Source: a virus
IMG/VR virus record: IMGVR_UViG_3300048922_000469
Location: 1-34,051 of that record
DNA: 34,051 bases
Strand: one strand, 5' to 3'
A program made the position numbers and the translations under genes. Positions 6,760 to 33,773 of this stretch are shown in pieces (position 1 is the first letter of the stretch; each line of letters opens with the position of its first letter). A model generated the notes under the pieces. It did not search any database. It was given only the letters and a program-made list of their open reading frames with translations, and was not told where the DNA came from.

Positions 6760-7206
6760 TTAGGCCGAAGCCGGCTTAACGTAAGAGTTAACGATTACGA
6801 CATCAGCGAAACCAGCGGCAGCCAGGGTGCGGCCTGCTTTCTCATCGAAAGTCGCCACAACGATGTCACCGGCAGCTGCTGCTTTGAAAATACCGCCCGC
6901 GCCGACGGTCAGCTCCTGACCGATGGTGTAAGCAGCGGCGGCCAGGCGCACGTTGTATTCTTGGTCGACTTCGACGCGGTACTGCACGCCAGTTTCGTTG
7001 GCCGCGTATGCGGTGTTGATGTCCTGCCCAATGAAGCGACGATTGCCAAGGATCAGCAGGCGTCCGGTGGCATCAGCAGCTACGCCCACGCCGCCAGTCG
7101 TGTTTTTCTTCACCACCACACCTGGCGACAGCGCGCTGGCTACCGGCAAGTTGATGGTTTCCGGCTCGCGCTCGGCCGGGCCGCGGTAAATGACGTGTGC
7201 CACCAT
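6760..7206 (-). CDS. Capsid decoration / cement-type protein
   Basis: This 148-residue, Ala/Gly/Val-rich beta protein lies between protease-scaffold and major capsid. It reads [58 protein letters not shown], a pattern seen in DUF2190-like or gp24-type cement proteins that bind capsid threefold or quasi-threefold sites. Its ATG overlaps the upstream stop codon by one base (position 7206), so translation is probably coupled. Function is inferred from pattern and position. Confidence 0.72.
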
Positions 7207-31383: not shown

Positions 31384-33093
31384 ATGTCAGTTCACTGGCA
31401 CGGTGGACCAATATGGGGCGACAGGATAACGCCCTCCAACGATTTGATAAAAGCCCTCTACCGCAATGGATGCTCCCTTGTTTCGTTTGCACGTCCCGAC
31501 CAGTTAAAAAAAATAGCCGCCATTGACTGCAAATTAGTGCTAGATAACGGCGCTTTTTCAACGTGGCGTAAAGCCAATACCGATAGCTGTCCACCTGATA
31601 CTGAGTGGTGGCAGAAGCACTGGGATGCTTATTACGATTTTGTCGGCGGTTGGTTCAGCAGGATCGAGTGGTTCATCATCCCGGACGTTATCGAGGGAAG
31701 CGAGACAGAGAACGACAACCTTATAGGACAGGTGCCGCACTGGCTGATGGGTAAAGCAGTTCCGGTCTGGCACTCGGACGAAACCATAGAACGCCTGCTG
31801 CGCCTCTGTGAGCGCTTTCCCCGCGTTGCAATCGGCTGTTGTGGGCCTCACCGGGTAATACGGACGAAGGCCTGGCAAAAAAGAATGGATGAGGTATTCC
31901 GGGAGCTTTACATAAACCGGCAGCTCAGAGTGAAAATCCATGGTCTGCGCATGCTTGATGTGCGCGTGCTGAGCCGGTATCCATTCGCCAGCGCTGACTC
32001 AACGAACGTTGCGGTAAATGTACCGCTGACCGAAAAACGTTTCCCCGAAATCAAGGACAAGCTGACGCGCACAGCTGTGATGCGCGCGGCGATCGAGCGC
32101 GTCTTTCCGCCGACTGTTTCCGACTGGGTTGCTACTCAACCGCCAATGCAGCGGCCAATCATCCTTGCTTCTCCCACTACCATCAAAAAGAACGGAGCTA
32201 AACCACTGATGACAGAACTCGCAGTAAATCCCTATTGCGTGGCGCTGGATGCGCTGCGCGCTCAGCCCACGCATAAGCTGAAGGAAGTCGGCGACCAGTG
32301 GCGATCGCCGGAGGCTATCTGGTGGGGCATCAACGCGATGTTCGGCCCTTTCGTGCTCGACCTGTTCGCCGACGCCAGCAACGCCAAATGCGAAGCGTTC
32401 TACAGCGCCGAAGATAACGCGCTGACACAGGATTGGAGCGCCCGCCTGTCAGAGCTGCGTGGCGCCGCGTATGCCAACCCGCCCTATTCCCGCGCCAGCC
32501 AGCAGGACGGCCAGTACATCACCGGGATGACGCACATCATGGCGCACACCGCCGCGATGCGAGAGCTGGGCGGCCGGTACGTTTTCCTGATTAAAGCGGC
32601 AACTGGGGAACTATGGTGGCCGGAAGATGCGGATCATGTCGCGTTCATTCGCGGCCGTATCAGCTTTGACCTGCCCGTATGGTACCGGCCGGCAGAGGGC
32701 CAGCCGTCAGAGTCTTCAGCGGGATTCGGCGCGGCAATCGCAGTGTTCGATAAAACGTGGCGCGGGCCGAAATTCGATTACGTCAGCCGCGATGAACTGG
32801 AAGCGCGCGGCGCCGCGTTCATGCGTCAGATAGAGCTGGCCGCGGCAAAGTTGATGCCGCCAGCGGAAGTTACTGCCGCGCTACAGGTGCCGGAAACTGA
32901 AGATGATGTCTGGCCTGTTGAAGTGATACGGCTGGCCGGGCAGATAAAACATCTCAATGAGTTGCCGCCAGTGCACCATCGCAAGGTCATGCAGCACATC
33001 AACCATCTGCTGCTGGACCGCGCACCATCCGGCACGATCATCGTTATGGCTCAGTCACTGGCATCAACTTTTAAGGAATTCCCGAATGCGTGA
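31384..33093 (+). CDS. Two-domain protein: TGT/DpdA-like barrel fused to Dam-like adenine methyltransferase
   Basis: The protein has 569 residues with a GAGGT ribosome site. Residues about 1-230 look like a tRNA-guanine-transglycosylase-type barrel of the phage DpdA kind: L-D54-N-G-A-F58, IIP-D101, VWH (H130), IGCCG (about 150-154), KIHGLRM (184-190) and FASADST (201-207). Residues about 303-480 match phage N6-adenine methyltransferases: DQWRSPEAIW, DLFAD (326-330), NPPYSR (365-370) and later AGFGAAIAVFDK. Dam domains methylate adenine. DpdA enzymes swap guanine for a 7-deazaguanine base in DNA. One protein could therefore modify two bases for restriction evasion. The barrel role is an inference and the methyltransferase is firm. 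Confidence 0.85.
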   Translation: MSVHWHGGPIWGDRITPSNDLIKALYRNGCSLVSFARPDQLKKIAAIDCKLVLDNGAFSTWRKANTDSCPPDTEWWQKHWDAYYDFVGGWFSRIEWFIIPDVIEGSETENDNLIGQVPHWLMGKAVPVWHSDETIERLLRLCERFPRVAIGCCGPHRVIRTKAWQKRMDEVFRELYINRQLRVKIHGLRMLDVRVLSRYPFASADSTNVAVNVPLTEKRFPEIKDKLTRTAVMRAAIERVFPPTVSDWVATQPPMQRPIILASPTTIKKNGAKPLMTELAVNPYCVALDALRAQPTHKLKEVGDQWRSPEAIWWGINAMFGPFVLDLFADASNAKCEAFYSAEDNALTQDWSARLSELRGAAYANPPYSRASQQDGQYITGMTHIMAHTAAMRELGGRYVFLIKAATGELWWPEDADHVAFIRGRISFDLPVWYRPAEGQPSESSAGFGAAIAVFDKTWRGPKFDYVSRDELEARGAAFMRQIELAAAKLMPPAEVTAALQVPETEDDVWPVEVIRLAGQIKHLNELPPVHHRKVMQHINHLLLDRAPSGTIIVMAQSLASTFKEFPNA

Positions 33094-33125
33094 AATCATC
33101 GTCGACTATAAATTGGAGATTCTCT

Positions 33126-33461
33126 ATGGCCGGTAAACCCATCCATGGTCTTTCTTACACACCTGAATACCGCGCATGGCAGACGATGCGCCTACGCTGC
33201 ACAGTGCCAGACAATCCGGCTTACGCTGATTATGGTGGCCGCGGCATCAAAGTCTGTGATCGTTGGATGACATCGGTTGAGGCATTTGTCAGCGATATGG
33301 GACCTAAGCCAACACCAGACCACGAACTTGACCGCTATCCGGATAACAATGGGGACTATGAACCTGGTAACTGCCGCTGGGCGACCAGAAGTGAAAATGA
33401 CCGCAAGAGACGCAGTAACCGGATCATTGCGTTCGCCGGCGAAAAACTTACCCCAGCTTAG
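33126..33461 (+). CDS. HNH-type protein, cut short by an in-frame amber codon
   Basis: ATG 33126 has a GGAG site eight bases away and gives 111 residues. A GTG at 33090 overlapping the previous stop is the alternative. Conserved features are PEYRAWQTMRLRC, YADYGGRGIKVCDRW and LDRYPDNNGDYEPGNCRWATRSEN, typical of phage HNH/NUMOD-related proteins. Relatives continue with a small HTH after '..GEKLT.xQWAER', but here the codon at the Gln position is TAG (33459-33461), and the frame continues open beyond it. A single CAG-to-TAG change would explain this. Confidence 0.75.
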   Translation: MAGKPIHGLSYTPEYRAWQTMRLRCTVPDNPAYADYGGRGIKVCDRWMTSVEAFVSDMGPKPTPDHELDRYPDNNGDYEPGNCRWATRSENDRKRRSNRIIAFAGEKLTPA

Positions 33462-33773
33462 TGGGCAGAACGTTATGGCATACGCGCAGATACCATCATT
33501 AAGCGGCTTAATTCCGGCTGGCCAGTCGGCAAAGCGATAACGTCCCCGGCCAGATCCAAAGCACCCAACGGAAAGGCAAAGAGCCCACTCCGGAAGTGCT
33601 TCGACTGTACAAAAATGGTCTCAGGCCTCCGCTGTAAATCATGCGAGAACCGCCGGCGCGCCAAGGATAAGCAAGTTGCCCGCTGCGGCAACGCCGTGCT
33701 GCCACCATTCGCGGAAGCGCTGGTGCGGGCCAATCTGCCAGAAATGTGCATTACAAAGGAGAAAGTAGCGTGA
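33462..33773 (+). pseudogene. Readthrough half of the HNH-type gene with a C5-methyltransferase-like tail
   Basis: The same frame stays open past the TAG and reads WAERYGIRADTIIKRLNSGW, an HTH module common at the end of HNH/NUMOD proteins. It then reads RKCFDCTKM, CKSCENRRR and VARCGNAVLPPFAEALVRAN. The last string resembles motif X and tail of DNA cytosine-5 methyltransferases (GNAV.PP..E.L..AN). The stop TGA (33771-33773) overlaps the GTG start of the next gene, the coupling expected for an intact gene. It therefore looks like the end of a once longer gene, or a fusion of a nuclease with a methyltransferase relic. Confidence 0.65.

Follow-up and report, generated by a model that had tools for sequence, protein, structure and literature searches.

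Can one phage polypeptide place two different marks on DNA, a 7-deazaguanine in exchange for guanine and a methyl group on adenine? The question is raised by an open reading frame in IMG/VR record IMGVR_UViG_3300048922_000469, all 34,051 bp of which were analyzed and are referred to here as the window. The record may be partial, at 34 kb against approximately 48 kb in related contigs. The reading frame, a prophage gene, contains no internal stop and joins a barrel of the DpdA type (DNA preQ0 transglycosylase) to a Dam-like methyltransferase. On homology, predicted fold, and analogy with related phages, its product is probably a bifunctional phage DNA-modification enzyme that would act on DNA, exchange the base using preQ0 made by the host, and thereby protect the phage.

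31384..33093, + strand: fused dpdA-dam gene, 569 aa, an uninterrupted ORF with an architecture shared with contigs L002 and L031/L126
31384..32133, + strand: DpdA/TGT-type (beta/alpha)8 barrel, aa 1-250 (PHROG 887, E 5e-79; hhalign to the DpdA of phage 9g, E 7e-10; AF2 pLDDT 88)
31540..31557, + strand: LDNGAF motif with the predicted catalytic D54, aligned with LDSGAF of 9g
31678..31692, + strand: IPDVI motif, in which D101 is the predicted base-binding aspartate by analogy with TGT, invariant in 36 rows
31933..31947, + strand: KIHGL motif with H186, aligned with the DpdA signature His196 of 9g
31993..32007, + strand: ADSTN motif with the predicted catalytic D205, invariant in 36 rows and aligned with CDSS of 9g

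Zero phage records in INPHARED cover 80% of the 569-aa fusion protein, and none of the plasmids and E. coli genomes searched does so. Each half resembles a different set of stand-alone genes: the N-terminal half matches those of HK106, PEAT2, and 7-11 (69, 65, and 59% identity, respectively), and the C-terminal half matches SfV-type Dam proteins.

The N-terminal half is unrecognised by Pfam and NCBIfam scans, and PHROGs alone provides a match, between residues 1-247 and PHROG 887, named “queuine tRNA-ribosyltransferase”. An AF2 model based on an alignment of 36 homologues predicts a fold in which helices alternate with eight strands. D54, D101, H186, and D205 fall at the ends of strands 3, 4, 7, and 8 or immediately beside them; the active-site geometry is judged from these strand positions only. 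The original prediction, made from the DNA letters, had proposed a transglycosylase barrel joined to a Dam-like methylase, to be abandoned if the fold were not a TIM barrel. Its motif positions are exact (DNGAF at 54-58, PD at 100-101, HGL at 186-188, and ADST at 204-207), the predicted fold is a barrel of eight beta/alpha units, and the two-part composition is upheld by PHROG 887, the 9g DpdA profile, the fold, and the methylase models PF05869 and TIGR01712. Of the proposed comparisons with DpdA and TGT, the former gave a match: the profile of this half aligns with 9g DpdA by hhalign (E 6.9e-10, probability 96.6), while a match to E. coli TGT was not found, so that homology was tested against 9g DpdA instead. 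In this alignment H186 falls on H196 of 9g. Among the residues invariant across the 36 diverse homologues are D54, G56, A57, P100, D101, PVWH at 127-130, H186, L188, and DSTN at 205-208.

In BFVD, the Foldseek neighbors of the barrel are largely phage queuine-TGT/DpdA proteins. In the PDB, the best Foldseek matches are generic TIM barrels, with the solved DpdA 7ui4, at rank 29 only, and Cap10 (9ntn) also among the matches, a ranking that tells against the DpdA reading; a PDB sequence search with the DpdA profile returned zero matches. The features of a DpdA (a TIM-barrel fold, homology to a tested DpdA, and the aspartate pair D54 and D205 with H186) are present, whereas those of bacterial TGTs are missing, as there is no Pfam TGT match and the zinc-binding CxCxxC is absent from the fusion protein. 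DpdA2 proteins are set apart by a missing His196 (Hutinet et al., PMC6884629), and the fusion retains this histidine. By homology and predicted fold, the N-terminal half thus appears to be a DpdA-type barrel, and it would insert a 7-deazaguanine by analogy with phages that carry related DpdAs.

It is improbable that the barrel instead modifies host tRNA, as a TGT would, or a protein, in the manner of Cap10, with the methylase attached incidentally. Members of the TGT superfamily act on tRNA, DNA, or protein, Cap10 binds a deazaguanylated protein N-terminus and is among the fold matches, and the PHROG family bears a tRNA-enzyme name. However, the E. coli TGT profile is unmatched, CxCxxC is absent, and the DpdA signature histidine is present; in addition, relatives have dADG in their phage DNA, and the gene neighbors include DNA methylases and preQ0 transporters.

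The C-terminal half belongs to a known family of phage adenine methylases.

32134..32208, + strand: linker, aa 251-275, of predicted disorder; the window and L031 differ in its sequence and length, the frame always being kept
32194..32197, + strand: GGAG 11 nt upstream of ATG 32209, possibly an internal ribosome-binding site, at the same place in L002 and L031
32209..33090, + strand: SfV-type N6-adenine methyltransferase, aa 276-569 (PF05869, E 3e-40; TIGR01712, E 1e-54)
32476..32487, + strand: NPPY, the methylase catalytic motif, by motif position

Residues 296-477 score 138 bits against Pfam Dam (PF05869; curated cut-off 28.1), and TIGR01712 scores 184 bits (curated cut-off 97); together, the phage adenine methylase models span residues 294-477. 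The methylase motifs named in the original prediction are present as LDLFAD (325-330) and NPPY (365-368). Identity to SfV Dam is 64% over 219 aa and reaches 87 and 80% in the stand-alone homologues L207 and L208. Methylase activity is accordingly predicted from family membership. In the full-length model, two confident domains are separated by a low-confidence linker around residues 257-281. ATG 32209 lies near the start position of the stand-alone Dam relatives, and the GGAG upstream of it weakly suggests a second translation start.

Of note, three related prophages (L210, L211, and L224) encode this SfV-type Dam with a PAPS-reductase-like domain joined to its N-terminus (PF01507, E 2e-8, in L210). 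Plain Dam proteins are labeled “phosphoadenosine phosphosulfate reductase” in PHROG 33262 and in RefSeq phage records such as NC_003444, a label that probably stems from the PAPS-reductase-Dam fusions inside this PHROG.

The fusion is an old one and is not confined to the window. The IMG/VR contig L002 encodes the same 569-aa ORF, its DpdA and Dam halves being 97 and 90% identical to those of the window, respectively. A 567-aa version, with halves 73 and 72% identical, is found in L031, in the overlapping locus L060, and in L126, a genome contig of Pantoea ananatis LMG 2665. The same gene in L003 carries a frameshift inside its Dam part, around 7100-7170. An assembly or frameshift artefact that joined two genes is scarcely credible: the virus record is of uncertain origin and the L003 copy is indeed frameshifted, but the same architecture is intact in L002, L031, and L126, and an artefact is refuted by these independent copies. 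That one architecture recurs in L002 and a prophage of Pantoea ananatis likewise argues that the fusion is no accident of assembly.

Both halves are under purifying selection, with Nei-Gojobori dN/dS values between the window and L002 of 0.14 for the DpdA half and 0.11 for the Dam half. Synonymous divergence differs between them (window 31384-33093 against L002 6001-7710), at a dS of 0.10 for the DpdA half and 0.61 for the Dam half, suggesting that recombination replaced the Dam half without disturbing the frame. Between the window and L031, the linker is strongly changed in both sequence and length, and the frame is still open. The selection data also bear on the possibility that the DpdA half is catalytically dead and helps Dam only by binding DNA or through regulation. 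A fused domain can take on a binding role; yet every residue invariant in the 36 homologues is kept and dN/dS is 0.14, making this reading highly improbable.

Two further fusions have different partners. In L029, a DpdA of the HK106 type is joined to a different PF05869 Dam, which is 31% identical to the Dam of the window and 93% identical to the stand-alone Dam of L111. A gene for Vut_1/YhhQ, a preQ0 transporter, lies directly upstream of the L029 fusion and overlaps its start. In L127, from Rosenbergiella, a third DpdA lineage is joined to a D12-family Dam. All three have DpdA at the N-terminus and a different methylase each time, and the DpdA tree places them in separate, supported positions; as read from the tree, DpdA-methylase joining has arisen at least three separate times. 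L127-like and BTP1-like DpdA queries retrieved 141 loci, in which gene pairs were numerous and further fusions were not found. Recurrence with different methylases suggests that viruses gain from the coupling of two DNA marks.

A possible, though rather unlikely, alternative to a coupled enzyme is that two separately working enzymes were merely joined when the stop codon separating adjacent operon genes was lost, with Dam also made alone from ATG 32209. The position of this ATG near stand-alone Dam starts and the GGAG kept in L002 and L031 would fit such an origin, as would the apparent recombination of the Dam halves; the fusions of the same Dam to a PAPS-reductase-like domain suggest that this Dam may be indifferent to its partner. 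Against such an origin stand the three independent fusions, each to a different methylase and each with DpdA N-terminal, and a reading frame that has stayed open between lineages whose DpdA halves differ by 26%, although the linker changes fast. The enrichment of methylases beside DpdA in general, described below, also speaks for coupling.

Methylase domains within 500 bp of dpdA were found in 19 of 145 flanks (74 clusters), against 2.4 expected from their density further out. For stand-alone DpdAs of the window's family, methylase genes are approximately eight times commoner within 500 bp than further away. The methylase HMMs used for this comparison by distance took part of their seed sequences from DpdA neighbors. 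An unbiased Pfam scan, which compared nearest neighbors with controls four genes away, provides weaker support for coupling: among the matches listed, which cover the 25 commonest families on each side, methylases occur in 13 of 123 neighboring and 4 of 117 control ORFs (p 0.04), and YhhQ transporters in 6 of 123 and 0 of 117, respectively (p 0.03). Most stand-alone DpdAs have no recognised methylase adjoining. In 61 records with a window-type DpdA, a PF05869 or D12 methylase, where present, is mostly fused to or adjoining dpdA, the exceptions being three in which it is far off and Pantoea phage MED16, in which it lies 1.2 kb away. Conversely, DpdA was found in none of 34 phage records with an SfV-type Dam; coupling is therefore visible from the DpdA side and not from the Dam side.

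Several arrangements recur among these loci. Of the 61 loci that the L127 query retrieved, 34 have a D12 gene immediately upstream of dpdA. The same position is taken by a D12 adenine methylase gene in many prophage contigs (L288-L318, L323, L333, and L336). C5 methylase genes are a recurring companion as well. In the plasmid or phage loci L037, L038, and L056, rdgC and dpdA occur together with one long gene, which in L037 encodes an 810-aa C5 and D12 adenine methylase; on a Pantoea plasmid, dpdA overlaps the gene for such an 810-aa methylase. In L061 and L062, which resemble the D12-dpdA prophage loci, dpdA precedes a phage GPA replication gene, an arrangement also seen in P2-like phages.

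The closest characterized systems clarify what is shared and what differs. The DpdA of phage 9g/CAjan, to which the N-terminal half is homologous by profile, has motifs of the same kind (DSGAF, HGF, and CDSS, with His196). In contrast to the fusion, it stands alone and is encoded with FolE, QueD, Gat-QueC, and QueE, whereas the fusion has a shorter barrel, an attached methylase, and no que genes. The singleton DpdAs of Salmonella phage 7-11 and MED16 belong to the same subfamily as the N-terminal half (59 and 40% identity, respectively) and also occur without synthesis genes. MED16 encodes a PF05869 Dam as well, and its DNA contains both dADG and m6dA. In both phages, unlike in the fusion, dpdA is a separate gene. 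Known SfV-type Dams either stand alone or, as in the prophages described above, carry a PAPS-reductase-like N-domain rather than DpdA.

The original prediction had stated that the window lacks que genes and that the host would make the precursor. The first point is supported by tblastn searches with FolE, QueD, QueE, and Gat-QueC of phage 9g and three phage YhhQ proteins, which revealed nothing convincing for preQ0 synthesis or transport in the window. The second agrees with the presence of QueC and QueF in the hosts of two related fusions, L126 and L127, from which preQ0 could be supplied. Relatives in which bases have been measured carry mainly dADG and not preQ1 or dG+, with 50 dADG per million nucleotides in 7-11. 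The base is scarce in 7-11 and MED16 (0.02-0.13% of G), and in MED16 it is apparently of little effect on the restriction enzymes tested; this scarcity and small effect place the benefit of the mark in doubt. To judge from MED16, dADG on its own may give little protection.

Under the preferred reading of a bifunctional enzyme, the N-terminal barrel would work as a DpdA-type DNA transglycosylase in which D205, together with D54, attacks the deoxyriboside of a chosen guanine in a finished DNA strand. The guanine would be replaced by a 7-deazaguanine, with preQ0 drawn from the host queuosine pathway and perhaps ending as dADG. The C-terminal domain would methylate adenine at N6 using SAM, and the flexible linker would keep both domains on the same DNA. 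New phage DNA would acquire two marks and may thus be protected against host nucleases whose recognition sites contain G or A. A more specific proposal, and an unlikely one at present, is that both halves act on one shared site, the methylase half directing base exchange such that the G and A of the same short motif are marked in one binding event. If so, the small DpdA family would take its specificity from a fused or adjoining methylase (Dam, D12, or C5), constituting a general DpdA-methylase module.

The presence of both activities in one phage via separate genes is already known from MED16. The fusion, its recurrence, and the coupling of DpdA to methylases are new as judged against the open-access literature, in which no report of the fusion, its repeated origin, or the general neighborhood was found; an earlier mention outside it is possible. 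The functional divergence of gammaproteobacterial singleton DpdAs was left open by Hutinet et al. 2019 (PMC6884629). That singleton DpdAs have repeatedly been joined to DNA methylases, or are encoded as a pair with them, is independent evidence that they act on DNA and work with methylation. The association also suggests, in a form open to testing, how a small DpdA that modifies few sites might choose its guanines. If a single chain does write both marks, 7-deazaguanine and methyl, it would represent a compact modifier of DNA.

A second methylase gene once followed the fusion, as indicated by remnants downstream.

33086..33106, + strand: remnant of the first codons of a C5-methyltransferase gene (MREIIVD), which overlaps the stop of dam, as it does in relatives
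33126..33461, + strand: HNH endonuclease gene in place of the C5-methyltransferase body (PHROG 3377, E 1e-39)
33636..33770, + strand: 45-aa remnant of the C-terminal end of a C5-methyltransferase, with 78% identity to residues 570-614 of the L002 protein

The full C5-methyltransferase gene is present in L002 (7703-9544; PF00145), and in both L002 and L031 it overlaps the end of the fusion. In the window, at 33086-33770, it is reduced to its first 7 and last 45 codons.
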